IMG/VR virus record: IMGVR_UViG_3300036828_000508
Coordinates: 1-52,743 of that record
Origin: a virus
Reading direction: 5' to 3' (one strand)
DNA length: 52,743 nt
In this document: positions 3,243 to 52,345 of the stretch, piece after piece
Layout of the letters: every line of letters begins with the position of its first letter
Position numbering within the stretch: position 1 is the first letter of the stretch
The notes under the pieces: generated by a model
Told to the model about the DNA's origin: nothing
What the model saw: the letters and a program-made list of their open reading frames with translations, nothing else
Databases searched by the model: none
Made by a program: the position numbers and the translations under genes

Positions 3243-3258
3243 AATGGAGCTGATCTCT

Positions 3259-4506
3259 ATGCGTGCCCCGCTGCCGCTCACCGTTAGATCAATCGAAGGG
3301 CTCGACCTGCTGCCCGAGGAACGCGACGCCTGGATATGGGACTCCGACAGCGGCCAGCGCTCGGGCCTCGGCCTGCGGCTGCGCCGGGGCAAAGCCGGCG
3401 TTTCCAAAACCTTCTATGCGGCCTATCGCTTTGGCGGCCAGGATCGCCGCGATCCGATCGGCGACGTCTCAGCCTATACGCTGGCCGACGCCCGTCACCG
3501 TGCCTACGAGCACCGCCGCGCCGCGGCCGACGGCAACGATCCGCGCGAGGCCAAGGCGGCCAAGGTTCGCAATGCGATCAAGGCCTCGGGCTGCCCGATC
3601 TTTGCCGACTACACGACACACTATTTGGCGCGGCGCAAAGGCGACCTGCGGCCGAATACCTTTCACTGCCGCACGCGCTATCTGACGCTCGAATACTGTG
3701 CGCCGCTCCACAAGCTGCGGCTCGACCAAATCGACAAGGCCATGATCGCCAGTCGATTGAACTTCCTCGAAGACACCGGCATTGCCAAGGCGAGCGTCAA
3801 TGTCGCCAAATGCGTTCGCATTGCCCTGATCGATTTGTTCAAACTCGCGACCTCCGAGGGCCTCATCGAAATCAATCCAGCGCAGGGTACTCCGCAGCGC
3901 CCCGCGCCCGAGCCTCGCAAGCGAACATTGAGTGACGTCGAACTCGCCGCGCTGTGGAACGCGACCGGCGACGACGGCGAGTTTTCCAAGATCGTGCGCT
4001 TGCTGATCTTGCTCGGTGCCCGTCGTAACGAGATCGGCGGTATGGCCTGGTCGGAATTCGACGGCCTTGGCAATTGGACGCTGCCCGAGCATCGCAGCAA
4101 AACCGGCAACGAGCTACGGCTGCCGCTGTCGCCCGCTGCGCGCGAGATTATCAATTCGATTGAACGACGCGACCGCCGCGATTGCCTGTTTGGCGGCAGC
4201 AACGGCTTTTCGCAGTGGAGTGGCGCCAAAAAGAAGCTCGATGCGCGGCTGCCGCTCGTCAAAAGTTGGACGCTGCACGATCTGCGCCGATCGATGATCA
4301 CGAGCATGCACGAACTCAACATCGAGCCGCATATCATCCGGGCGATCGTCAATCATTCGCGCGGCGATGACGTTCACGGCAAGCATTACAACCATGCGAC
4401 TTACATGCCGCAGAAGGCGACCGCGTTGCAGCGCTGGGCCGACCATGTTCAGGCCCTTGCCGATGGTAAGCCCTCCAACGTCGTGCCACTGAGGCCCGTG
4501 GCATGA
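3259..4506 (+). CDS. int: Tyrosine recombinase / phage integrase
   Basis: A 415-residue site-specific recombinase. The start at 3259 is chosen because GGAG at 3246-3249 lies nine bases ahead, although the frame is open to 3160. The N-terminal third is an arm-binding/DUF4102-like region (about residues 1-100), then a SAM-like core-binding domain, then the catalytic domain. The active-site set is complete: R255 (GARRNEIGG), K281 (RSKTG), H340 and R343 (LHDLRRS), H366 (VNHSRG) and Y377 (GKHYNHATY). It would integrate the phage into the host chromosome, which makes the phage temperate. The next small gene overlaps its stop (ATGA). Confidence 0.95.
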   Translation: MRAPLPLTVRSIEGLDLLPEERDAWIWDSDSGQRSGLGLRLRRGKAGVSKTFYAAYRFGGQDRRDPIGDVSAYTLADARHRAYEHRRAAADGNDPREAKAAKVRNAIKASGCPIFADYTTHYLARRKGDLRPNTFHCRTRYLTLEYCAPLHKLRLDQIDKAMIASRLNFLEDTGIAKASVNVAKCVRIALIDLFKLATSEGLIEINPAQGTPQRPAPEPRKRTLSDVELAALWNATGDDGEFSKIVRLLILLGARRNEIGGMAWSEFDGLGNWTLPEHRSKTGNELRLPLSPAAREIINSIERRDRRDCLFGGSNGFSQWSGAKKKLDARLPLVKSWTLHDLRRSMITSMHELNIEPHIIRAIVNHSRGDDVHGKHYNHATYMPQKATALQRWADHVQALADGKPSNVVPLRPVA

Positions 4507-23298: not shown

Positions 23299-23574
23299 AT
23301 GGCGCTCGGCGGAATTATCCTCGGCCTGATCAACATCGTGATTGTAATAGTGATTTTGTTGCTGATCGGCGCTTGTATTGCGTGGGTTATGAGCACGATC
23401 GGTTGGCCGGTGCCGCAGATGGTGCAGCAGCTTTTTCTTGCGCTCGTGATGCTAGTCGCGGTTTATCTGCTGGTGGCGTTGCTGCTCGGCCTTCCGGGCG
23501 TTCGCCTCATAGGGTCGTTAGAAGGCCAGCCGCAAACGCTGGTGCGTTATTCGCTCGCGTCGCTGTCCAGCTAG
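23299..23574 (+). CDS. Two-span membrane protein (holin-like size)
   Basis: A 91-residue protein with two strong membrane segments, about residues 5-32 (IILGLINIVIVIVILLLIGA) and 42-68 (QLFLALVMLVAVYLLVALLL), and a short polar C-terminal tail. AGGGGA lies seven bases before the ATG. The size and two spans fit a class II holin, but its place between terminase and head genes is unusual for one. It is the first of a short run of envelope- or surface-type genes inserted here (23050-24975), so an envelope role unlinked to lysis is also possible. Confidence 0.65.
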   Translation: MALGGIILGLINIVIVIVILLLIGACIAWVMSTIGWPVPQMVQQLFLALVMLVAVYLLVALLLGLPGVRLIGSLEGQPQTLVRYSLASLSS

Positions 23575-23678
23575 GGTCTGGAGACAAAATCAACCAGCGG
23601 CCATTTGTGTGGCTTGGCCGCAAAACCGGAATTACTGGAAATTACAGTAAGACTTGCTCAACAACTGGATGGTGGTCA

Positions 23679-24350
23679 ATGAGGAATCTTCTTTTCGCCG
23701 GTGCGGCGCTGCTCTTCGGTAGCCTTTCGGCGCAGGCCGGGACGTTCGATGCGACGAGCTTCTCGGTAATTGGCGGCGAGAACGTCTCGATGACGTCGCC
23801 GAAGGTGCAAACCGTCAGCGCCGGCGAAGTGACGCTGAGCGGGCCGAGCGGCAACATCGACGTCTGGTGCGTCGATCTTCTCGACGTGATCAGTCTGCCT
23901 TATCTTTATAGCACCGGTGTCTACGTGCCGGGCTCTTCAGTGCCGGGCATGCCGACATTGGACGCGACGCAGACCCACGATGTTGCCGATCTGATCGAGA
24001 ACGGCCAGGGCACTGGCGCCACCAATGCCGAGATCCAGGTCGCGATCTGGGAAATCCTTTACGGCAGCAACTTCGTGCCGGTCGGCCTCACCGCGCCGTT
24101 CAGCGCCGAAGTCGCAACGCTAATCGGCGAGTCCGGCACGTTGCTCAATTGCCCGGACTGCTCCCTGCAAGTCTTCACCGACGCGCCGACGGTCGTCAGC
24201 CAGTCATTTGCCGATGTTGTTGTGGCACCGACGCCAATCCCTGGCGCGCTGTTGCTGTTTGGGAGCGGCCTCATCGGCCTTGTTGGCGCTGGCTACGGTG
24301 CCAAAAGAAAGCTGCCGCGATCAGCGTTCAATACCGCAATCCAAACATAG
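23679..24350 (+). CDS. Exported protein with PEP-CTERM-like sorting signal (2)
   Basis: A 223-residue protein. It has a Sec signal (MRNLLFAGAALLFGSLSAQA, cut before GTF) and a beta-rich middle with CVDLLDVIS and a Cys pair LNCPDCSLQ. The C-terminal sorting signal is TPIPGALLLFGSGLIGLVGA, followed by the basic AKRK. Its architecture is that of the protein at 19150, although the middle is unrelated by eye. Both would need host exosortase. No known virion protein has such an end, so it is likely a cargo gene that changes the cell surface of the host. The start at 23679 is the first with a full signal peptide. Confidence 0.75.
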   Translation: MRNLLFAGAALLFGSLSAQAGTFDATSFSVIGGENVSMTSPKVQTVSAGEVTLSGPSGNIDVWCVDLLDVISLPYLYSTGVYVPGSSVPGMPTLDATQTHDVADLIENGQGTGATNAEIQVAIWEILYGSNFVPVGLTAPFSAEVATLIGESGTLLNCPDCSLQVFTDAPTVVSQSFADVVVAPTPIPGALLLFGSGLIGLVGAGYGAKRKLPRSAFNTAIQT

Positions 24351-25137: not shown

Positions 25138-25191
25138 TGCCATTCCATTGCCAGGCTTTGCATTGCTTGCCTCGCCGAGCCGCGCCACTCC
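25138..25191 (+). repeat. Single unit of the pentanucleotide array
   Basis: TGCC followed by ten 5-mers (attcc attgc caggc tttgc, then attgc ttgcc tcgcc gagcc, then gcgcc actcc). It follows exactly the grammar of the large array at 6379-8160 and ends at the same type of boundary word. It is thus one complete 54-base unit, in the same plus-strand orientation, placed upstream of the protease-capsid gene. Confidence 0.8.
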
Positions 25192-25232
25192 TTCAACAAC
25201 CCGAAGCCTATCGGACCGACGAAGGTAAAGCC

Positions 25233-27698
25233 ATGCTAAAATTAAAAGAATACGCAGACCCAGGCTATCAAAGTGACGGCAAAAAGCGGTTTCCGCTCGA
25301 TGATGCAAATTGGGTTCGGCGCTCTTGGGCGCGGCTGGTTCAAATCGGTGACAAATATACCGATGAGCAAAAGCGGCGCATTGCCATCCGGATCACTGCG
25401 GCTTGGAAGGACAAGATCGAATCGGCCGGGCCGCCGGCGCTCGACGACAAGGCCGCGATGGAGATTGTTCAGCGCGAGTCGTTGTTAATCATCAAAGCCG
25501 AGGCGCCGGACCCGGACGATGACGAGTCCCACGATGACTACATCGAACGCTGCATCGACGAGATGACGTCGGACGACGACGACCTCGCCGACGACCAGGC
25601 CGAGGAAGCGTGCCAACTCAATTGGGAAGAATACGACGATCGCGGCGCCGGCTTGATAATGCACAAGACGCGTACGACGCCCGCCGGTGGCATGGTATTT
25701 GTTTTGTCCGATGCAACGCCCGATCGCTTCGGCGACATCATCGAGGTGTCATCCTGGGACACCGAGAACTTTCAAAAAAATCCCATCGCGTTATTCAACC
25801 ATGACAAAAGTTTTGTGATCGGGAAATGGGCCAATCTGAAAAACGACGACAAGGATCTGCGCGGCGAGCTGGTGCTGGCGCCGAAAGGCACGTCGCCGCG
25901 CATCGATGAAATTCGCCGGCTGATCGAAGCCGACATCCTGCGCGCCGTCTCGGTCGGCTTTCGCCCGGTCGAGACCGAGCCGATCAACGCCAAGGATCAG
26001 TGGGCTGGCACCCGCTATCTCAAAAGCGAGCTGGTGGAGACCAGCGTGGTCGCGGTGCCGGCAAATCCGAATTGTTTGGCAATCGCTCGGAGCTTGAACA
26101 TTTCACCTGCAACTGTCCGCTTGGTTTTTGGCGAGCATGCCAACGAGAAAGTCATGCGGCGGAATTACGACGCGAACCGAGGCGAGGATGCCAATACGCG
26201 GCGCGCGGCGAAGACTGGCGAGGATGCCGACGACAACAGGAAAGCTACCAACGGCGAGCATGCCGAAACACATCGTAGTACGACGAGGGGAAACCCCATG
26301 TTGCTTTCGCAACGCATTCAGGAAGCCCAAAAGCGCGTCATCGCGCTGCAGGACAATCTCGACAAACATCTCGAAGGTATCGACGACGAAAGCCCGAGCG
26401 AAGAGCAGATGGTGCTGACCGAGGATCTGACCAGCAAGATCCAGACGGCAACGCGCCATCATGACAGCCTGGTCGCCATCGAAACCAAGAACGGTGCTCG
26501 CGCCGTCGACGCCGGCGATGCCGGTAAGACCGGCAGGAGCCTGATCAAAGCCCCGGCTGATCTGATCATCCGCAGCAAGAAAAAGGCCGACGTTCTCGAC
26601 CTTTTTGTGCGGGCAATAATCGTCGGCACCAAGGCGCGTATCGATGGCACCCCCATTGACGACATGCGCCGCAAAATTTACGGCGACGACGAGGCGCAGC
26701 GCGTGGTTTGCGATTACGTTCTCAAGGCAGCCTCGGCGCCCGCCATGACCACGGTGGCCGGATGGGCCGCCGAGCTCGTGCAAACGATCTGGCCGCAGTT
26801 CATGGAAGCGTTGCTGCCCTCGAGCGTATATCCCAAGCTCGAGGCAATGGGTCTCGCGCTGACGTTCGGCGCCGCCGGCCGCATCATCATCCCGACTCGT
26901 AATCTGACGCCCGCGGTGTCCGGCAGCTTCGTCGGTGAAGGTTTGCCGATCCCGGTGCGCCAGACTGCATTCGCCAGTCAAGCGCTTACGCCAAAAAAAA
27001 TGGCAGTAATCACGGTTTGGACAAAGGAAATGGCAGACCACAGCATCCCAGCGATCGAAGGCCTGTTGCGGCAAGCGGTGCTCGAGGATACCGCGATAGC
27101 ACTCGACACCGTTTTGCTCGACAACAATCCGGCGACTGCGATCCGGCCGCCCGGCCTGCGGTCCTATCAAGCGGGTCTCACCGCCTCGACGGCGACGCCG
27201 GGTTACACCGCCTTTGTCGCCGATTACCGGGCACTCTATGGCGCGTTGCTTGGCCTCACCAACGGCAACGTGCGCAAACCGGCAATTCTGCTCAATCCGA
27301 CGCAGACCATGGATCTGAGCACCCTACAACCGCCTGCTGCGGCAGCACCGCTATGGCCGTTGTCGGAGATGGTCAACGCTGGCCGTATCGGCAAAGCCGC
27401 GCTGATTGAATCGGCAACAGTACCGGCGGGCATGGCGATCATGGTCGATGCCGCCGACTTTACCTCGGTCGGTTCTGAAGGAATGCGCATGGACATCAGC
27501 GACCAGGCGACAATTCACCTGGAAGATACCAGTCCGCAGGACATCGTGTCCGGCCCGAGCGGCACGCCGGTCCCTGCGACGCCAGTCAAATCCATGTGGC
27601 AAACAGACTCGCTCGCTTTACGGATGATAGCGCCAATCAATTGGATCATGCGTCGCCCAGTGGTCGCATGGATGACCGGCACGGCGTGGGGCACGTAG
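25233..27698 (+). CDS. Prohead protease - major capsid protein fusion (HK97-like)
   Basis: An 821-residue polyprotein. Residues 1-65 are a small DUF6582-like helical domain. Residues about 150-285 are a U35/S78 prohead protease (FNHDKS with H190, RAVSVGF with S240, LVETSVVAVP with E269). A linker with a 12-residue repeat (GEDA/GEHA) follows, then from about 356 a capsid protein with a helical delta-like region and the HK97 fold. An internal ATG at 26298 (M356) has GAGGGG seven bases ahead, so free capsid protein could also be made. The start at 25233 has AAGG eight bases ahead. In most phages these are two genes, so the fusion is notable. Confidence 0.9.
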   Translation: MLKLKEYADPGYQSDGKKRFPLDDANWVRRSWARLVQIGDKYTDEQKRRIAIRITAAWKDKIESAGPPALDDKAAMEIVQRESLLIIKAEAPDPDDDESHDDYIERCIDEMTSDDDDLADDQAEEACQLNWEEYDDRGAGLIMHKTRTTPAGGMVFVLSDATPDRFGDIIEVSSWDTENFQKNPIALFNHDKSFVIGKWANLKNDDKDLRGELVLAPKGTSPRIDEIRRLIEADILRAVSVGFRPVETEPINAKDQWAGTRYLKSELVETSVVAVPANPNCLAIARSLNISPATVRLVFGEHANEKVMRRNYDANRGEDANTRRAAKTGEDADDNRKATNGEHAETHRSTTRGNPMLLSQRIQEAQKRVIALQDNLDKHLEGIDDESPSEEQMVLTEDLTSKIQTATRHHDSLVAIETKNGARAVDAGDAGKTGRSLIKAPADLIIRSKKKADVLDLFVRAIIVGTKARIDGTPIDDMRRKIYGDDEAQRVVCDYVLKAASAPAMTTVAGWAAELVQTIWPQFMEALLPSSVYPKLEAMGLALTFGAAGRIIIPTRNLTPAVSGSFVGEGLPIPVRQTAFASQALTPKKMAVITVWTKEMADHSIPAIEGLLRQAVLEDTAIALDTVLLDNNPATAIRPPGLRSYQAGLTASTATPGYTAFVADYRALYGALLGLTNGNVRKPAILLNPTQTMDLSTLQPPAAAAPLWPLSEMVNAGRIGKAALIESATVPAGMAIMVDAADFTSVGSEGMRMDISDQATIHLEDTSPQDIVSGPSGTPVPATPVKSMWQTDSLALRMIAPINWIMRRPVVAWMTGTAWGT

Positions 27699-27728: not shown

Positions 27729-28073
27729 ATGGCAGACACAGAGACCAAAAACCAGCACCCTCAGCATGCTCAGCATGCCCAGCATGCGACGCCCAAGACG
27801 GCCGGCGATCGCATGGCCGAAGATAAAAAGCAGCTCGCGGCCGAGCGCGAGCAGCGTGCCAAAGACATGGCCGAACGCGACAAGCACCGCGGTACGCCAA
27901 CGCCGACGCAGGAGGAATGCGACCTCGCCAAGCTCGGTCATCATCCTCAGCTCGCCGACGATGGCTCGGGGCCGGATCCGAACGAAAAGCTAAATACGGT
28001 CCGGCATATCGGTGCCAAGCCGCCAGCTTCTAATGCGGAGTATCAAACCCGCGCGGCAGCGCCGAAGGTCTGA
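27729..28073 (+). CDS. Hydrophilic His/Lys-rich protein after capsid
   Basis: A 114-residue, highly charged protein with little predicted fold. The N-terminus has a His-rich repeat (QHPQHAQHAQHA), the middle is helical (EDKKQLAAEREQRAKDMAER) and the C-terminus Pro/Ala-rich. GGAG lies nine bases before the ATG. It stands between the capsid and portal genes. A scaffold, decoration or internal head protein is possible. No family is recognised. Confidence 0.65.
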   Translation: MADTETKNQHPQHAQHAQHATPKTAGDRMAEDKKQLAAEREQRAKDMAERDKHRGTPTPTQEECDLAKLGHHPQLADDGSGPDPNEKLNTVRHIGAKPPASNAEYQTRAAAPKV

Positions 28074-28080
28074 AACTTCC

Positions 28081-29541
28081 ATGGGCCTGGTCTCGCGGAT
28101 CGGTCAGACGTTCTCGGCCGTTGTTAAAGCGGCCGAGGGCGCCTGGCGCCCAGGTCCTTACTATCTCCCGGTGACGCACGGTTTTTTGCCGGACGGTGCC
28201 GCTGTTAACTGGTGGCAATGCGGCGAGACTCCTTATCTCGCCGGCACGCGGCTCGCCATCATCGAAGCTTGCATCGGCGCCTACAGCCAGACCATGGCGA
28301 TGTGTCCTGGATCGCACTGGCGCGCCAACGGCAAAGGCGGCCGCGATCGCGTCACCAATTCCGCGCTGTGCAGAATCCTGCGCTACCCAAACGATTATCA
28401 GAGCATCAGCGATCTGATTCTTAACACGGTGCGGCAGCTCTATCTCGAGGGCAACGCCTATCTGCTGTGCATGCGCAATGCGCGCTATGAGATCGAAGAG
28501 CTGCACCTCATGGACAATAGGTACAGCCGCGCCATGATCGACGGCGAAGGCGAGGTGCATTATGTCGTCGGTGGCAATTGGATAGTGCAGAACCGCTACG
28601 GCCCCTTAACGACGGTGCCGGCGCGCGACGTTCTGCATATCAAGCTGCACGTCGATCAGCTGCGCAATCCACTGCGCGGCGAAAGCCCGCTGGTGTCGGC
28701 TTATCTCGATGCCCTGACCGGGCAGTCGATCCGCGCCCAGCAATACGTGTTTTATCAGAACCAGGCCAAGCCCGGCTTTGTACTCTCGACCGATCTGGTG
28801 CTCGACAAGGATCAGGTCTCGGCATTGCGCGATCGTTGGAGCGAGCAATCAACCGGCGCCAATGCTGGCGGCACTCCGATCCTCACCAATGGCCTCAAGC
28901 CATTGCAGATCCCGGTCACCAATTTTCGCGACGCCCAGCTCGCCGAAGTGCTGCGGCTGACCGATCAGGATATTGCCATGGCGTTTCGCGTGCCGGCGCA
29001 GCTGGTCGGTCTGCAGGCCGCGCACACCACGCCGCACAGTTCGACCGAAGCGCTGATGCAATCCTGGGTCGCGTCCGGCCTTGGCTTCTGTCTCAACCAT
29101 ATCGAGGAAGCAATTGGCCAAACCTTTGAGCTCGACGGTCAGCCGGACGAGTATGTCGAATTTGATACCGGTGCGCTGCTGCGCTCGGATTTCAAGGATC
29201 GCATCGACAGCCTGGCCCGCGCAGTACAAGGCGGCATCATGAGTCCCAACGAGGCGAGAAATTCCGAAGATCTGGATTCGGTACCGTTCGGTGATGAGCC
29301 TCGTGTCCAGCAGCAGGTGGTGCCCTTGAGTCAGGTCGGCAAGATTCCGCCAGCGCCAGCTGCGCCATCGCAGCCGAGCGCGCCGCCGTCAGATAAAAAA
29401 CCAACGCAGCAGCCGCCGGGATCGTCGCAGAAGGCAGATGCCAATGTCGCAGCCAATGGAATCGCCCGAGTCATGTTCACCCGCGCCAAACGGATCCAAC
29501 GGCAGCAGCAGCGCGAACAACAACGACTCCTCAGCAGCTGA
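28081..29541 (+). CDS. Portal protein, HK97-like
   Basis: A 486-residue portal protein forming the head vertex ring through which DNA passes. The conserved features are LAGTRLAIIEACIGAYSQT, then LYLEGNAYLLCMRN, DVLHIKLHVDQL..PLRGESPL, and FRVPAQLVGLQ with the following HSSTEALMQSW segment. The last 90 residues are Pro/Gln-rich and basic. It begins seven bases after the previous stop. Unlike most HK97-type clusters the portal follows the capsid gene rather than preceding the protease. Confidence 0.93.
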   Translation: MGLVSRIGQTFSAVVKAAEGAWRPGPYYLPVTHGFLPDGAAVNWWQCGETPYLAGTRLAIIEACIGAYSQTMAMCPGSHWRANGKGGRDRVTNSALCRILRYPNDYQSISDLILNTVRQLYLEGNAYLLCMRNARYEIEELHLMDNRYSRAMIDGEGEVHYVVGGNWIVQNRYGPLTTVPARDVLHIKLHVDQLRNPLRGESPLVSAYLDALTGQSIRAQQYVFYQNQAKPGFVLSTDLVLDKDQVSALRDRWSEQSTGANAGGTPILTNGLKPLQIPVTNFRDAQLAEVLRLTDQDIAMAFRVPAQLVGLQAAHTTPHSSTEALMQSWVASGLGFCLNHIEEAIGQTFELDGQPDEYVEFDTGALLRSDFKDRIDSLARAVQGGIMSPNEARNSEDLDSVPFGDEPRVQQQVVPLSQVGKIPPAPAAPSQPSAPPSDKKPTQQPPGSSQKADANVAANGIARVMFTRAKRIQRQQQREQQRLLSS

Positions 29542-29554
29542 ATACCAGGAGAAT

Positions 29555-30628
29555 ATGCTCGATGCCGGCGCCGCCGTCATCGTCGAGCTGGAGGCCAAAT
29601 GGGGTCGCGATCTCGATCTCATGCGCGCGGAGGCGCGCGCGATCATCGCCGACCTGCGCGCCGCGAATGTCGAGCTGGTCGCGCAGCAGCGCGAGAAGAT
29701 CGATTATCGCCTAGCCTCGCTCAAAGACGGTGACGTCGGCGAGCCGGGCAGGAACGGCAGCGTCGGCGATCCAGGGCCAGCTGGCCCAGCCGGTGCGCCT
29801 GGCTTGCCGGGCGACAAAGGCGATACCGGTGAGCCCGGCGAGCCCGGAAAGAACGGCGCCGATGGCGCGCCTGGAGTCGAAGGACCGCCCGGCGCTGTCG
29901 GGCCGGTCGGGCCGCCCGGCGCTAACGGCGAGCCCGGCGAGCCTGGTCGCAATGGCGACGCCGGCGCGTCCGGCGCCAAGGGCGATCGCGGCGAGCCTGG
30001 CCGCAATGGTGAACCCGGCGTGGTCGGCGCCAAGGGCGAGCCCGGTGAGCCTGGCCGCAACGGCGAGCCCGGCATGGTCGGCGCCAAGGGCGATCGCGGC
30101 GACAAGGGCGAAGCCGGTCCGCGCGGCGGCGTCGACAAGATTGTCGCCTGGTCGGATCGGATCTTCTACGAGGGCCGTCTGGTCACGCACAAAGGCTCGT
30201 GCTGGCAGGCCGCTTGCGATACCGCCAGGCAGCCCGGCACTTCCGCCGATTGGCTCGAGATCGCCGCCGGCGGCGCACCCGGTGGCACCTTCAAAATTCG
30301 CGGCACCTGGCGCGCCGAGGAAAAATACCGCGCGCTCGATGTCGTCACCCTCGATTACGGCTGGTTCGTCGCCAGGCAGGACGATCCCGGCCCGATTCCC
30401 GGTCCTGGCTGGCAGGCCGGCCCGGTCGGCCGCCGCGGCGAAAAAGGCATCGCTGGCGAGCGCGGCGGCAAAGGCGATCCCGGCAAGTCGGCGCCGCATT
30501 GGATCGGCCTCAAGGCCGACGGCTATAGCCTCACCGCGGTGATGAGCGATGGCGCTATCGGGCCGCGCATTTCGCTCTTCTCGATGTTTGAGCAATTCGA
30601 GGCCGAGCTGAGACTGCGGAGCAAATAG
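29555..30628 (+). CDS. Collagen-like protein within the head module
   Basis: A 357-residue protein. Residues 1-60 form a helical, coiled-coil start (MLDAGAAVIVELEAKWGRDL). About 60-190 are Gly-x-y triplets (GEPGRNG, GDKGDTGEPG, GAKGDRGEPG), then a beta-rich domain (IVAWSDRIFYEGRLVTHKG), a second short collagen stretch and a C-terminal domain. AGGAGA lies four bases before the ATG; a longer frame would overlap portal by 104 bases. A trimeric fibre is likely. Its place between portal and connector genes suggests a head fibre or decoration rather than a tail fibre. Confidence 0.85.
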   Translation: MLDAGAAVIVELEAKWGRDLDLMRAEARAIIADLRAANVELVAQQREKIDYRLASLKDGDVGEPGRNGSVGDPGPAGPAGAPGLPGDKGDTGEPGEPGKNGADGAPGVEGPPGAVGPVGPPGANGEPGEPGRNGDAGASGAKGDRGEPGRNGEPGVVGAKGEPGEPGRNGEPGMVGAKGDRGDKGEAGPRGGVDKIVAWSDRIFYEGRLVTHKGSCWQAACDTARQPGTSADWLEIAAGGAPGGTFKIRGTWRAEEKYRALDVVTLDYGWFVARQDDPGPIPGPGWQAGPVGRRGEKGIAGERGGKGDPGKSAPHWIGLKADGYSLTAVMSDGAIGPRISLFSMFEQFEAELRLRSK

Positions 30629-30630
30629 CA

Positions 30631-31269
30631 GTGCAGCAGATCCTCAACGTCATCACGCCATCGCCGACGCAGGATCTGGTGTCGCTCGATGACATGAAGC
30701 AGAAACTCTTCATCGCGTCGTCGGATACGACCAAGGATTTTCTGCTGCAGGAGATCATCACCAACACCTCGGAGACGATCGCCAAATTATGCAATCGGGT
30801 CTTTGGCTATGAGGAAGTCGACGAAACTTTCTATCAGCTCGAGGATGGCAGTAGCCAACGGCTCTATCTGTCGCGCTGGCCGGTGCTGCTCACCGATATC
30901 AAAACCTTCACCCAGGACGGCAACGATCTGTTGGCGGCGCCCAATTGGGTGCTCGAGCAGGCCACCGGGACCATCTATCTGCAATCCAGCCTCGGTTCCT
31001 GGTACGGCGTTATCGATGTTGACTACAGCGGCGGCTATCAATTGCCCGACGGCGCGCCAGGCTCGTTGAAGTTCGCCACCGAGGCGCTGATCCGCGAAGG
31101 CTACATGTCTTGGATCCGCTCGCCGGCGTCGTTCGGGGTGCGCCAAATTTCGCATAAGGAGGCCCGCATAGGTTACTTCGGGCCAAATCTTTTCCCCACC
31201 ACCGGGCTGCCGGCGACCTGGCAAACCGTGCAGAGCATCTTGAACAGATACATCAGGCACTGGGTGTGA
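30631..31269 (+). CDS. Head-tail connector, gp6-like
   Basis: A 212-residue protein with the pattern of HK97 gp6-type adaptor proteins: LVSLDDMKQKLFIASSDTTK followed by DFLLQEIITN, then SETIAKLCNRVFGYEEVDETF, and a beta region with YLSRWPVLLTDIK and IYLQS. It would sit under the portal. The start is GTG. Its TGA overlaps the GTG of the next gene. The C-terminal 70 residues, with SWIRSPASFGVRQISHKE, extend past the short HK97 gp6. Confidence 0.75.
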   Translation: MQQILNVITPSPTQDLVSLDDMKQKLFIASSDTTKDFLLQEIITNTSETIAKLCNRVFGYEEVDETFYQLEDGSSQRLYLSRWPVLLTDIKTFTQDGNDLLAAPNWVLEQATGTIYLQSSLGSWYGVIDVDYSGGYQLPDGAPGSLKFATEALIREGYMSWIRSPASFGVRQISHKEARIGYFGPNLFPTTGLPATWQTVQSILNRYIRHWV

Positions 31270-32327
31270 TCATGAAGCAGGAGCAGATCAGGCTGCGGGC
31301 CGCCGCTTATCAATGGCGCGCTGCCGCCGCGACAGTCCGGGGCTTCGTCGAAGGCACATCGCCCGAGACCATGGCGCGTGCGATGTATCCGGACGATCAG
31401 GTCACGCCGCTGGTGTTGCGCGCGGCGACGACACAGGCAACGACAACGGATCCGTTGTGGGCCGGTCCGCTGGCGATGCAAAGCCGCGCCGACGCGATCG
31501 AGGATGTGGTCGCGCTTTCCGCGCTCGGCCGGCTGCTGGCGGCCGGTGCGCTCAATGTCGATCTCGGCCGCCTGGCGACGCTCATCGTTCCTGGCCGCGT
31601 CACCAATGTACTCGATGCCGGCCAGTTCGTGCAGGAAGGCAAACCGGTGCAGGTGCGCCAACTGAATGTCACCGGCGCGCCATTGCGCCCGCGCAAGCTC
31701 GAAGTGATCGTCACGGTGACGCGCGAGCTTACCGAGGCGTCAAACATCGAAGACGTGGTTCGCGTGATTTTGACCGAGGCGGCCGGTATCGCGCTCGACG
31801 CCGCGATCTTCTCGGCAACCGCGGCAACGCCGGCGCGCTCGGCCGGCATTCTCAACGGACTGGTCGCGCTGGCACCGTCGGCGGCTGGCGGCTTCGAGGG
31901 CGCCGGCGAAGATCTCGGCGCCTTGACCCTCGATCTTGCCACGCGCGCCGGCGGCCAATTTCCGTTCTTCATCGCCGCGCCCAGCCAGGCGACGACATTG
32001 CGCTATTGGGCCGGCGGTCAATTCGGCACCGGACCCGGCAGCGATATTCTCCCCGTCGCCGCCAGCGCCGGTCTGCCAGACAAGACTGTCGTCTGCCTCG
32101 AACCGCGCAGCTTCGTCTGCACCATCGGGCAGCCCAGCTTCTCGGCAAGCCGCGTCGCGACGCTGCACCAGGAGGACACTACGCCGGCCGATATCGTCGC
32201 CGGCGCAGCGGCGACGCCGGTCAAGAGCATGTTCCAGATCGATGCCATCGCGCTGAAAATGACGCTATGGGCCGACTGGGCGATGCGCGCGCCGCACGTT
32301 TCTTTCATGGATGCGGTGACCTGGTAA
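31266..32327 (+). CDS. Second HK97-fold major-capsid-like protein
   Basis: A 353-residue capsid paralogue without protease or delta region. It aligns along the capsid part of the fusion at 25233-27698: VQEGKPVQVRQ against VGEGLPIPVRQ, LRPRKLEVIVTVTRELTEAS against LTPKKMAVITVWTKEMADHS, and IALDAAIF against IALDTVLL. The end LHQEDTTPADIV..ATPVKSMFQ matches LEDTSPQDIV..ATPVKSMWQ. It lies between the gp6-like connector and the next neck gene, not next to a protease. It could form a minor capsid component, a different shell or cap. Start GTG at 31266 (GTGA overlap); ATG at 31272 is the alternative. Confidence 0.85.
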   Translation: MIMKQEQIRLRAAAYQWRAAAATVRGFVEGTSPETMARAMYPDDQVTPLVLRAATTQATTTDPLWAGPLAMQSRADAIEDVVALSALGRLLAAGALNVDLGRLATLIVPGRVTNVLDAGQFVQEGKPVQVRQLNVTGAPLRPRKLEVIVTVTRELTEASNIEDVVRVILTEAAGIALDAAIFSATAATPARSAGILNGLVALAPSAAGGFEGAGEDLGALTLDLATRAGGQFPFFIAAPSQATTLRYWAGGQFGTGPGSDILPVAASAGLPDKTVVCLEPRSFVCTIGQPSFSASRVATLHQEDTTPADIVAGAAATPVKSMFQIDAIALKMTLWADWAMRAPHVSFMDAVTW

Positions 32328-32725
32328 TGCCGATCGAATTTGATCCCGGCCCGCTGGCGAAGCTCGATCGCCGGCTCGACGACATGGTCAAACAGCTCGA
32401 GGCCTTCGGCAATCATTTCGGCGATATCCTGTCGGACTGGCAAACCGAGGACATCCACCGCAAAAGGGCGTTCACGCTGAAGTGGGGCAAGCGGGTGCAT
32501 AAGGCGCAGACCACAGTGCGGCCGCACTCATTGCACGAAATGCTCGGCGAGCACGCCTATCAACGTATCGTCTTGCACACGCCAAATGTTAAGCGCGGCC
32601 ACATCCGCCGTCGCTATCGCGGTCGCGTCTATCGGCGCACCTCGACCCGGCCGATATTGCGCTCCGGGTTGCTTGAACTGCTGCAGGCCCGATTGAACGA
32701 GGCGCTGGCGCGTCTCAAATGGTGA
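32327..32725 (+). CDS. Neck / tail-completion protein candidate
   Basis: A 132-residue basic protein. It has a helical start (PLAKLDRRLDDMVKQLEAFG), a DILSDWQTEDIHRKRAFT segment and a basic end with RRRYRGRVYRRTSTRP then a helix (LLELLQARLNEALARL). This pattern resembles HK97 gp10-type tail-completion proteins, but only weakly. It overlaps the stop of the capsid paralogue (TAATG). Its role in the head-tail joint is inferred mainly from position. Confidence 0.55.
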   Translation: MPIEFDPGPLAKLDRRLDDMVKQLEAFGNHFGDILSDWQTEDIHRKRAFTLKWGKRVHKAQTTVRPHSLHEMLGEHAYQRIVLHTPNVKRGHIRRRYRGRVYRRTSTRPILRSGLLELLQARLNEALARLKW

Positions 32726-32731
32726 TGAGCT

Positions 32732-33085
32732 ATGGGTCAGGATTGGGCCAACACAGTCTATGCGCCATGCCAGGATACTTTCGGCCGCGAGATCTGGATC
32801 AATCCGGTGGTCTCGCAGCCCGGCACTCCGGCCTATCAGGCGCGCGGCATCTATAATCGCAACCGTCTCAATGAAATCCTCGAAGATGGCTCGATGTTCG
32901 TCGAGCAGGAAACCATCCTCGACGTCCTCGAGCAGGAATTCCCGGTGCTGCCGCAGCAGGACGACGAGGTAACGATCCCGGTCGACAGCCTCGGCATGCA
33001 AACTGCGCCCGGCGATTTCACCATTACCAGCGTTTGGGACAATGGCGGCGGCGAATGGTCGCTGCATCTGCGTAAAAAAGTTTGA
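32732..33085 (+). CDS. Head-tail joining protein, gpFII-like
   Basis: A 117-residue small beta protein: WANTVYAPCQDTFGREIWIN, then PAYQARGIYNRNRLNEIL and a loop with EQETILDVLEQEFPVLPQQD. Proteins of this order are head-tail attachment (gpFII/phage_attach) parts. It ends RKKV and overlaps the next gene by four bases (TTGA). It probably forms the lowest head ring or the tail joint. Confidence 0.65.
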   Translation: MGQDWANTVYAPCQDTFGREIWINPVVSQPGTPAYQARGIYNRNRLNEILEDGSMFVEQETILDVLEQEFPVLPQQDDEVTIPVDSLGMQTAPGDFTITSVWDNGGGEWSLHLRKKV

Positions 33086-34462: not shown

Positions 34463-35999
34463 TGAGGTCGACCCCTCGATGGCTGGTTTGCCGTCGATCA
34501 ATCTGCGCGCACTTCTCGTTGGTGTGATGAGCACTACCGAGGGCAGCGCGACGGTTGATGTGCCGGTGCCGATCGGCTCGCAAGCGCAGGCCGATTCCAA
34601 TTTTGGCGTCGGCTCGGAATTGAGCCGGATGTTCACTCGATTCTATTCCAATAATTTCGCGAATGAAGTGTGGGGCCTCGGCGTTTCGCCCGGCGGCACT
34701 GCATCGGCGGCGACCGGCACCATCACCGTCACGGCGGCGCCGACGGCTCCCGGCACGTTATGGCTTTACGTTGCCGGCCAGCTGGTCAGCGGCATCAATA
34801 TCTTTACCACCGACACGGTACCCGACATCGCGACCTCGATCGCCGATGCGATCAATGGCGCCTATGCCAGTGGCGATCCGGCGTTGCCGGTCAGTGCCGT
34901 TGCTGCGGCCGGCGTCGTGACGCTGACGGCGTTGTTTGATGGCGTCAACGGCAACGAGATCACGGTGTCGCTGAATTACCAGGGCGCACTTGGCGGTCAG
35001 ATCACGCCTCCCGGCCTCGGCATTACGTTGCCGACCGGTGGCTTGCTCAGCGGCGGCGTCGGCACGCCGGATTTCACCAACGCCATCGCCAACATCCAAA
35101 AGGAAGCGTTCGAATACGTCGCGATGCCGTACGCTGACGCCAATTCGCTGTTCGCTTGGGATCAGGAATTTGGCTTCACCGACACCGGCCGCTGGGGCTG
35201 GCAGCGCCAGCAGTTCGGCCATGTCTTTAGTGCCAAGCGCGGCATCTACTCCGACTTGATCCTGTTTGGCGATACACTTAACAGCGGGGTCGAGTCGATC
35301 ATGGCAATGGAGCAGACTTGTCCGTCGCCGATGTTCGAGGTCGCGGCCGCCTATACCGCCAAGGCGCAGCGCGCTTTGATCAACGATCCGGCGCGGCCGT
35401 TGCAGACCTTGTCGCTCAATGAAGTCAAGGCAGCGCCACTGCAGGACCGTTTCAACTTCGTCGAGATCAACAGCCTGGCATCGAACGGGCTGGCGATTCA
35501 GGAAGTCGGCAGCGATGGTCAGCCGATGATCATGCGGGAGCAAACGACTTATCAGCTCAATCTCTACGGCCAAACCGACGACGCCTATGAGCTGGTAACG
35601 ACGCTTGCGACCTTGGCCAAGCTGCTGCGCAATCAGCGCCAGGCCATCACCTCGAAATTCCCGCGCAGCAAGCTCGCCGACGACGGCACCAAGTTCGGGC
35701 CGGGGCAGGCGATCGTCACGCCCGGCATCATCAAGGCCGAGCTTGTCAACGAGTACCAGCTCGATATGTGGAACGGTCTTGTAGAGAACCTTAAAGAGTT
35801 CAAGGCTAATCTAATGGTCGAGCGCGACCCCAATGACCCCAATCGGGTCAACGTGCTCTATCCGCCCGACCTGATCAATCAGCTGCGGATCTTTGCCGTG
35901 CTGGCACAGTTCCGCTTGCAATACGATCGTGGCCTCGACACCGCGATCATCGGTGCAGCACCGCCTCCGTTCCAGGCGGCTGGTGGTACGCCGCAGTAA
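34463..35999 (+). CDS. Tail sheath protein, exon 2 (Mu gpL-like)
   Basis: The main part of the contractile sheath. After splicing, exon 1 and exon 2 give 530 residues, the usual sheath length. Exon 2 starts with the Val third base, then E-V-D-P-S-MAGLPSINLRALLVGVM. Sheath features include FRALLIG-like LRALLVG, a middle beta domain with repeated TLTA strands, and a C-terminal domain YQLDMWNGLVENLKEFKANL and NPNRVNVLYPPDLINQLRI. A start at the ATG 34479 alone would miss the conserved N-terminus. The sheath marks the phage as a myovirus. Confidence 0.92.
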
Positions 36000-36012: not shown

Positions 36013-36675
36013 CTAATCAACGCCGCGTCGTAACCGTTCGCGATAGCGTCGTTTGCGATCACGCATGCATTGTGGGCACGGCTTACCAAATGGTTTGACG
36101 TGCCCATGTGTGCAAACAGCCCGACTTGATGCGAGGCGAAGTTTTTGTTTGTGTGCTTCTGACTTCGGCTTGGAGTTAATACCAGAATGATCGTTAAGCG
36201 CTCGGGCTGCGCGCATTTTTGCAAACTTGTCGGCATACGTTTCAGGCGCTTCAGCAATCAGTCGCAATTGTGCTTGGCGTATTGCTTCACGGTGTTGCGG
36301 AGATTTTGGGCCTTTCCCTACGCCACTTTGTTTGACGGCTCGCGATATCTTGCGCTTCGTCTGTTCAGTGTGTCGTCGCCCGGCGCGGACGCCCACACCG
36401 CCCGCCATGCGATTCCAGCCGAGATTGGCTGTCGGGCGTAGCGACCGTTCGATTTCCAAGCATCGCACTATCGGTCCTTCGTAAAGAACTCGCACCGAAA
36501 AGGTCTTGGGCAGCTCACGCGCGGCACTGTTTCGTCTCTCTCGGTGTTGCTGAAGCCGCGCCTTCAGGTTCGTCGTGACGCCGATATAGCCGCTGTCTGT
36601 CGGATCGATACAGCGCGCGTCGAACAACCAATAGACCCAGCCTAATTCATCTGCCTGTGGTTGCATTGTGGGCAT
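36013..36675 (-). CDS. GIY-YIG homing endonuclease with NUMOD3 and zinc finger
   Basis: A 220-residue free-standing nuclease on the opposite strand, 13 bases after the sheath stop. Residues about 11-90 are the GIY-YIG domain: WVYWLFD, GYIGVTTNLKARLQQH and the catalytic Glu in CLEIERSLRP. Then come NUMOD3-like DNA-binding helices (HTEQTKRKISRAVKQSG, SPQHREAIRQAQLRL) and a C-terminal CTHGHVK..CPQCMRDRKRR finger. It would cut intronless or endonuclease-free alleles and start copying into them. The group I intron 1.5 kb upstream lacks its own endonuclease, so this gene may drive both. Start at 36675 follows AGGACAGGGC. Confidence 0.92.
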   Translation of the reverse strand: MPTMQPQADELGWVYWLFDARCIDPTDSGYIGVTTNLKARLQQHRERRNSAARELPKTFSVRVLYEGPIVRCLEIERSLRPTANLGWNRMAGGVGVRAGRRHTEQTKRKISRAVKQSGVGKGPKSPQHREAIRQAQLRLIAEAPETYADKFAKMRAARALNDHSGINSKPKSEAHKQKLRLASSRAVCTHGHVKPFGKPCPQCMRDRKRRYRERLRRGVD

Positions 36676-36755
36676 GCCCTGTCCTCGTGTTAACCATACA
36701 AAACAGCCAGATAATACGGGCACTTTCGCTATCTGTCAAAAATAGGAGATGGTAC

Positions 36756-51184: not shown

Positions 51185-52345
51185 ATGGCCATCGTGCCTT
51201 GGCAGTGCGCCAGCGGCGACGCGCCCTCGGTCACGCTGCCGTGCGCGACGACCGTAGCGCTCGCGCCGCCCGACGATAGCGTCGACACCAATCAAGTCGT
51301 CATCACTGGCAACGGTGCCATCGAATCATTTGGGCCGCCGCCAGGACCGCAGATAATCGATCCAGCCGATCCGCCGGTCCCGGTCGGCATCACTAAAAAA
51401 GTCACGTTCGAGCCGACGTCGCCGACAGCGCCGATTTCGCTTATTCATAATGGCACGACGCTAAGTTTGCTCGGCGGCGTCTCCAGGACGATCAGCAACA
51501 AATCGATCGGCGTTTATGCCTGCGATCCTGCCGGCAATTGGTCCGAGCAGTCATTCACCGATACGACAGTTGGCGATGGCGGCGGCGGCGGTAGCACGCC
51601 TGGCCCTCCGGGGCCGACCGGCCCAGAAGGCCCAGCAGGTCCACCCGGTGCAACCGGCCCGGCAGGTCCTACCGGCCCACAAGGCGCAACAGGCCCGCAA
51701 GGCTCAACTGGCGCGACCGGATCGGCTGGACCGCAAGGTCCGGCGGGGCCGCAGGGCCTGCAGGGAATTCCGGGTGTTGCGGGCTCGACCGGCGCGACTG
51801 GCCCGCAGGGCAATCCAGGGCCGGCTGGCGCAACCGGCCCAGCGGGCGCGACAGGTCCTGCTGGCCCAGCCGGTGCTGACAGCACGGTGCCGGGGCCCGC
51901 TGGCGCAACCGGCCCAGCGGGCGCGACAGGTCCCGTTGGCCCAGCCGGTGCTGACAGCACGGTGCCGGGGCCCGCTGGCGCAACCGGCCCGACAGGTGCG
52001 GCCGGTCCCGTTGGCCCAGCTGGCGCTGATAGCACAGTGCCGGGGCCGCCCGGGGCAACAGGCTCAACAGGCGCAACAGGCCCAGCTGGCCCGACAGGTG
52101 CGACCGGCGCTGCCAGTACGGTGCCGGGCCCGGCCGGTCCCAGCTATTTGGCGACCTCGGCGACGGCGATGCCGATCGCAAAAGGCAGCGTGACATTCAC
52201 GACGCAGGCCGGCTCCGCCTATAGCGTCGGCGCTCGCATCCGGCTGGCGTCGCGCGGCGCGCCAACTACAACCTGGATGGAGGGCGTCATCACTGCGTAT
52301 TCGGGCACGTCGATGACCGTCAATGTCGATCTCACAGGACCATAA
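51185..52345 (+). CDS. Long collagen-like tail fibre
   Basis: A 386-residue protein. Residues 1-135 are beta-rich ([40 protein letters not shown]). About 140-320 are Gly-x-y triplets ([20 protein letters not shown]), including a 25-residue unit with [20 protein letters not shown] repeated three times; at DNA level the unit is 75 bp (51875, 51950, 52025). The last 68 residues are the tip module with MATSA-like [16 protein letters not shown] and [20 protein letters not shown], shared with the protein at 49109. Confidence 0.85.

Follow-up and report, generated by a model that had tools for sequence, protein, structure and literature searches.

The stretch of viral DNA considered here (52,743 nucleotides, the IMG/VR record IMGVR_UViG_3300036828_000508; henceforth the window) poses the question of what a phage that already encodes a main capsid protein (MCP) might gain from a second capsid gene, whose product we call P2, placed downstream of the first. 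A preliminary description of the sequence had suggested three possible roles for P2: a special vertex, a second type of shell, or a decoy. The head region of the window contains the following features.

25233..27698, plus strand: main capsid gene, with an S78 prohead protease, a delta-like linker of ~100 residues and an HK97 capsid domain in one frame (Pfam, PHROGs)
28012..29541, plus strand: portal protein (Phage_portal, E 7e-63, Pfam; phrog_12)
30631..31269, plus strand: head-tail adaptor (phrog_442, E 2.7e-16)
31266..32327, plus strand: P2, the second capsid gene, HK97-fold, without protease or delta domain (BLASTP, PHROGs, predicted fold)
32327..32725, plus strand: 132-residue protein without a credible family, between P2 and head closure (PHROGs, Pfam)
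32732..33085, plus strand: head closure / head-tail attachment (Phage_attach, PF05354, E 2.9e-6; phrog_82)
34479..35999, plus strand: tail sheath of a contractile tail (phrog_165, E 1e-138)

Kinship and predicted fold of the two capsid proteins

Pfam and PHROGs matches for P2 and its neighbours agree with the earlier statement that the gene lacks a protease and lies among connector genes, in the order adaptor, P2, 132-residue gene, head closure, terminator-like gene and tail sheath; the phage that holds P2 also encodes TerL, portal, MCP and tail genes. Read from the GTG at 31266, the P2 frame comprises 353 residues, but the ATG at 31272, which gives 351 residues, is the more likely start because most of the aligned relatives begin with M-K/N at that point. 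The TGA stop codon of the adaptor (31267-31269) lies 2 nucleotides ahead of this ATG and overlaps the alternative GTG start, and adaptor and P2 are therefore probably co-translated. In the alignment of relatives only 14 residues stand ahead of the first conserved W-R of P2; of the N-terminal propeptide that the prohead protease removes from vertex proteins of the T4 gp24 type, P2 may thus have at most a very short one. For the fusion, the start is probably the ATG at 25233 rather than the listed TTG at 25158.

The preliminary description had reported that the two capsid proteins share sequence, and this is borne out. In a BLASTP comparison with the fusion (ORF 25158-27698), P2 is 30% identical over ~355 columns (E 4e-28), and the alignment, which begins at residue 492 of the ORF as listed, takes in nothing of the fusion but its capsid domain; P2 contains neither the protease nor the segment of ~100 residues that separates protease from capsid domain. 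Both proteins fall into phrog_617 (major head protein), P2 with E 8e-14 and the fusion with E 4e-74. The Pfam search recognized Peptidase_S78 and Phage_capsid in the fusion and matched no family in P2. Both of the motifs quoted earlier are present in the pair: EG.P..VRQ as QEGKPVQVRQ in P2 and GEGLPIPVRQ in the fusion, and EDT.P.DIV...ATPVKSM as EDTTPADIVAGAAATPVKSM in P2 and EDTSPQDIVSGPSGTPVPATPVKSM in the fusion, which has a short insertion there.

Identity between P2 and the MCPs of the window's capsid clade (defined below) is distributed unevenly over the protein, with domain borders assigned by hand on the basis of the secondary structure of the model and of the known layout of the HK97 subunit. 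It is highest (0.68) in the EDTxP-TPVKSM stretch, followed by the C-terminus (0.51) and by the E-loop, spine and P-domain strands (0.38-0.44), and lowest in the A-domain (0.20-0.22). When the MCPs are compared with each other, the corresponding values are 0.46-0.53 for the A-domain and 0.77-0.85 for the spine and P-domain strand, so the A-domain changes faster among the MCPs as well and the surface pattern of P2 is only partly specific. These regional identities lean towards P2 being a subunit that might have kept its contacts with neighbouring capsomers while its part of the capsomer centre diverged.

Structure prediction, which the preliminary description had named as a check, gives P2 an HK97 fold. 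An AlphaFold2 model built from 15 P2-family rows alone reached pLDDT 73 and pTM 0.72, and when the PDB was searched with this model in Foldseek (best E 2.5e-8), the rows listed were all shells of the HK97 fold, among them encapsulins and the capsids of phages or satellites; 7rwz, the procapsid of SaPIbov5 with Ccm, ranked fifth. A deeper model from 82 rows, the MCPs included, reached pLDDT 83 and superimposed on HK97 prohead I with Z 15.6 (rmsd 4.2, 250 aligned); the T4 head chain 7vrt_he (gp23 or gp24) matched the P2 model with Z 12.4 in the VIA list. A sequence profile of the P2 rows matched one capsid in the PDB, that of phage Muddy (E 9.5e-4), and the PDB matches of the P2 profiles included no entry named T4 gp24 and no SaPIbov5 chain; the resemblance of P2 to Ccm is one of predicted fold and not of PDB sequence matches.

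Distribution and constraint of P2 in phages

IMG/VR was searched with P2, the fusion, an alignment of P2 relatives and one satellite copy. The contigs whose fusions are ~59-71% identical to that of the window make up its capsid clade. The presence of P2 was counted at loci with an MCP match and both the adaptor and the sheath (48 rows, several per contig), the sheath gene forming the right-hand limit. By this count P2 lies between MCP and sheath in 13 of the 13 distinct contigs of the clade, which include two near-identical pairs and thus represent ~11 independent lineages, and at none of the 26 loci outside the clade, counted without dereplication. Two further contigs (L076 and L098) have P2 but no full MCP and stand outside the 13. 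The presence of two capsid genes in one phage, as described earlier, is thus confirmed, although not as a peculiarity of a single phage, since P2 occurs throughout the clade. Relatives outside the clade mostly have no second capsid, and the main protein alone would therefore make the vertices there. The exceptions among the 26 loci are two (L141 and L143) in which a second capsid gene lies upstream, between TerL and MCP; an upstream second capsid also occurs in L050, L140, L202 and L203, and follows TerL wherever TerL is in view.

Within the clade the place of P2 varies. It mostly adjoins the adaptor gene, but it lies ahead of the sheath gene in L003, L020, L082 and L083 and ahead of the adaptor in L005. 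The relatives of P2 are 49-64% identical to the window copy in amino-acid sequence, with intact frames in the members that were read. Estimates of dN/dS by the method of Nei and Gojobori, which are rough because several dS values are high, were 0.104, 0.170, 0.105, 0.083, 0.045 and 0.049 for six phage pairs of P2 (a seventh was saturated), comparable to the 0.116 and 0.117 obtained for MCPs; for satellite capsids they were 0.185 (L095/L100), 0.242 and 0.256. Judged from these comparisons, P2 of the phages is conserved clade-wide and under purifying selection.

Its identification as a chance ORF or a pseudogene was rejected on the grounds of its kinship with the fusion (E 4e-28), its aligned relatives and these dN/dS values. 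That P2 might be a functionless duplicate in decay has nothing in its favour beyond the divergence of P2 from the MCP, is contradicted by the intact frames, by dN/dS of 0.045-0.17 and by retention across 49-64% identity, and has in our opinion a negligible chance of being correct.

Among deposited phages, only Rhizobium phage RHph_X2_26 and Salmonella phage FSL SP-016 were matched, in each case through the phage's single capsid/protease fusion, and none by a second capsid.

Satellite-like islands and the second-capsid lineage

Capsid genes of the P2 lineage also occur by themselves. Two IMG/VR contigs (L095 and L100) carry such a stand-alone gene, and in them the only other head gene recognized is a small terminase. 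L100 contains, besides the P2 relative, a short overlapping gene, a baseplate-hub-like gene, a prim-pol gene, DUF5906 replication genes and an integrase, and the island adjoins a cyclase/ATPase gene of chromosomal appearance; L095 contains an integrase, the P2 relative, a short gene like that of L100 and, as phrog_12559, the small subunit of a terminase. When 391 genomes from the Nitrobacteraceae, the family of Bradyrhizobium erythrophlei, were searched, 21 of them gave matches, at 25 places in all. Fourteen regions were taken, 13 of them from this search; those 13 cover 15 of the 25 places, and two more places were already in L143. Twelve of the 14 regions (L190-L201) have a stand-alone capsid gene, and the other two (L202 and L203) are prophages whose second capsid gene lies upstream.

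A search of the 14 island loci (L095, L100 and L190-L201) for homologs of the TerL, portal and sheath encoded in the window found none. In the 11 genomes behind L190-L201, Pfam recognized portal in 6, TerL_ATPase in 2 and S78 in 4, but none of these inside the fetched island regions; the matches lie on other contigs or, for S78 in genome G381, 34 kb from the capsid gene. An integrase was recognized in 13 of the 14 islands (L095, L100, L190-L194 and L196-L201) and none in L195, the calls being made through the protein clusters F1 and F19 (F19 was checked in L200) and through PHROGs or Pfam for L095, L196 and L201. Seven of the 14 have a small terminase, by PHROGs in L095, L190, L191 and L200 and by membership in the L200 cluster in L195, L197 and L199, with tests elsewhere among the islands restricted to selected genes. 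Replication initiators are present in L194 and L200, a primase or helicase in L100, L190, L192, L193 and L198, and a hub-like gene in L192.

Credible direct repeats, 9.8-12.0 kb apart, bracket capsid gene and integrase in five of the 14 islands: 52 bp at tRNA-Asp in L196, 15 bp at tRNA-Glu in L201, and 16-19 bp in L197, L198 and L200, all three of which lie in the same host intergenic repeat. A 15-bp repeat pair in L192 is without comparable support, and no flanking repeats were found in the remaining eight island loci. By their gene content these elements are satellite-like islands in which the P2-lineage gene is the sole capsid gene found.

The satellite capsid proteins, as called, do not extend far at the N-terminus, although the start is unsure for L190, L192 and L195. 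In 10 of the 14 islands a gene for a charged, probably helical protein of 130-190 residues starts between -7 and +10 nucleotides from the stop codon of the capsid gene (examples are L200:7299-7775, L194:10327-10803, L095:3101-3499 and L100:2727-3158). It is a candidate for a separate scaffold that might stand in for the missing delta domain.

A gene of the window itself, at 3244-4506, clusters with the island integrases (family F1), which suggests that the window phage is temperate.

For phylogenetic analysis, 173 capsid-domain rows were cut to 99 at 93% identity, and further MCP rows were removed by hand, 23 for a tree of 77 rows and 35 for a tree of 81 rows; all of the trees were built quickly and contain long branches. 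In the 77-row tree all second capsids (23 P2 sequences, including L095 and L100, and four upstream copies) group against the MCPs (support 99). When the satellites were added in the 81-row tree, the second capsids of phages and satellites formed one group (SH-aLRT 89) in which the two are interleaved, with L196 and L201 unplaced; in a 78-row tree without L195, L196 and L201 the second-capsid split had SH-aLRT 95. These three (L195 because it was called too short, the others because they were unplaced) were also left out of the AU tests, whose p values should be taken less strictly than their size suggests, given several long satellite branches and groups that were named after the first tree. 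With that qualification, a single clade of satellite copies was rejected (131 log-likelihood units, AU p 8.7e-17), as was a recent duplication within the window's clade, since the tree that places P2 with the MCPs of that clade is worse by 75.7 log-likelihood units (AU p 0.0023). In these trees, then, P2 belongs to an old lineage of second capsids that is common to phages and satellite-like islands. Because the satellite copies are not monophyletic, the gene has, on this evidence, moved between phages and satellites.

A possible place for P2 in the shell

Two known systems offer a precedent for a capsid paralog with a dedicated place. According to published accounts, gp24 of T4 is a paralog of the MCP gp23 and is present in 55 copies at the vertices (PMC5694885), and Ccm of the staphylococcal satellite SaPIbov5 is 24% identical to its CP, fills all of the pentamers, has a delta domain of 87 residues that is cleaved, is the sole satellite protein required for redirecting phi12 heads in size, and forms no capsids by itself (PMC8569155). 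Like gp24, P2 is an MCP paralog encoded by the phage within the head gene set of the same genome; unlike the T4 system, the P2 phages carry a protease-delta-capsid fusion and are not T4-like, and their second-capsid lineage is common to phages and satellites. Like Ccm, P2 has a low identity to the MCP (30%, as compared to 24%) and kin in satellites. It differs from Ccm in that the window copy is encoded by a phage, although its relatives in L095, L100 and L190-L201 are satellite-encoded, and in having no delta domain, with merely the 14 residues mentioned above before the capsid domain. To our knowledge, dedicated vertex paralogs of HK97-fold capsids have been known only from the T4-like phages and this staphylococcal satellite group.

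The islands themselves also have counterparts. An earlier report notes a capsid homolog in the Gram-negative PICIs PmCI172, for which small capsids were seen, and EcCICFT073, and states that the role of the PmCI172 capsid gene could not be tested in that study (PMC6092414). The islands described here resemble these two in being integrative elements with a single capsid homolog, but the hosts of PmCI172 and EcCICFT073 are Pasteurella and E. coli. The cf-PICI EcCI2 likewise has a satellite HK97-fold capsid (9gyi), to which the P2 model aligns with Z 13.9. The cf-PICIs build whole heads with a portal and protease of their own, neither of which was found in the islands considered here.

Of the three roles put forward in the preliminary description, a place at the vertices appears to be the best. 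P2 might co-assemble with the main capsid protein, most likely as the pentamers of the fivefold vertices, and the hexamers would consist of the capsid domain that processing releases from the fusion; we regard the chances for and against this arrangement as evenly balanced. Because it is without protease and delta domain, P2 would probably need the fusion protein in order to assemble and mature, and it might join the shell via the conserved intercapsomer surfaces, namely the E-loop, the P-domain and the EDTxP/TPVKSM loop. The pentamer as its place is suggested by analogy with T4 gp24 and SaPIbov5 Ccm. The satellite kin could enter helper capsids in the same manner, as vertices, and so help to reduce the head to a size suited to a genome of 10-12 kb. 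The variable place of P2 in the operon weighs against the vertex role, since the gene for a vertex protein under strict co-regulation has no need to shift. The general lack of a second capsid in relatives outside the clade, the only partial specificity of the surface pattern and the absence from P2 of a delta domain such as the one cleaved from Ccm count against it as well. A second type of shell, composed of P2 only, is unlikely in view of the missing protease and delta domain and of the behaviour of Ccm, which by itself forms none.

A rather unlikely alternative, in our estimate, is that P2 is a minor subunit which sets the shape or size of the shell from places beyond the pentamers, in hexamers or end caps, where it would alter curvature to fit the genome. 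Satellite kin and Ccm connect proteins of this kind to head size, P2 retains the intercapsomer motifs, and the records that bear it extend to 81 and 87 kb, these two long records having exactly two capsid genes each. Nevertheless, the two analogues for which structures have been solved, gp24 and Ccm, are found in pentamers only, and there is exactly one capsid gene in each of five related phage records measuring 64-82 kb, so that genome length alone would be an insufficient reason for a second.

The notion of a decoy gains interest because relatives of P2 occur in satellite-like islands. P2 might be an interference device, that is, a capsid-remodelling protein of satellites which the phage has kept for use against satellites or other phages that seize its heads. 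The single lineage of phage and satellite copies (SH-aLRT 89 and 95), their interleaving, the rejection of a single satellite clade and the variable place of the gene, as of an accessory gene, would all be in keeping with such a device. Genes for interference are usually patchy in distribution and located outside the virion operon, however, and P2 is present in every one of the 13 clade contigs, within that operon and in most cases beside the adaptor; we think this explanation improbable. More improbable still is that P2 resides outside the shell lattice, in the neck or the interior of the virion, as a protein based on the capsid fold. The location of P2 between adaptor and head closure in most members might point to it, but in the five contigs named above P2 precedes the sheath or the adaptor instead, and in the satellites its kin occur by themselves, with no neck genes beside them; we know of no neck protein with an HK97 fold.

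A wider scenario can be outlined, which we consider possible but doubtful. A delta-less HK97 family might circulate between myophages and satellites of soil Alphaproteobacteria; the satellites would impose small heads by way of the vertices, and the window's clade might have made P2, whether acquired from them or drawn from a common source, a lasting component of its own head. Vertices filled with P2 would then perhaps keep satellites from resizing the phage head, and the fivefold position of the shell would be a contested site in an arms race between phage and satellite.

Among the papers listed in searches of the open-licence literature in PubMed Central, none appeared to report the P2 family, and nothing relevant on a second or duplicated capsid gene was among them. 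As far as that literature was searched, two things are new: a clade of fusion-bearing phages has a second capsid that lacks the delta domain, and satellite-like islands carry capsid genes of the same lineage. One lineage of second capsids thus spans phage and satellite settings, in Bradyrhizobium-related bacteria and in metagenomes, and the same building block apparently serves a lineage of soil phages and its parasites. Since phages and satellites both carry this gene family, capsid genes can be compared directly within one host group, and the origin of satellite capsid-remodelling proteins, as well as whether phages answer in kind, become testable now.

A few other genes of the window deserve mention. 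Two collagen-like proteins are encoded at 29438-30628 and 51185-52345, the first of them within the head operon, between portal and adaptor, where it is retained in most relatives. A GIY-YIG / NUMOD3 homing-endonuclease-like gene (36013-36723) lies on the opposite strand between the sheath and tube genes. Between TerL and the main capsid gene, an ORF at 23523-24350, which matches no Pfam family, specifies a protein whose N-terminus looks like a signal peptide and whose C-terminus we take to resemble a PEP-CTERM sorting signal.
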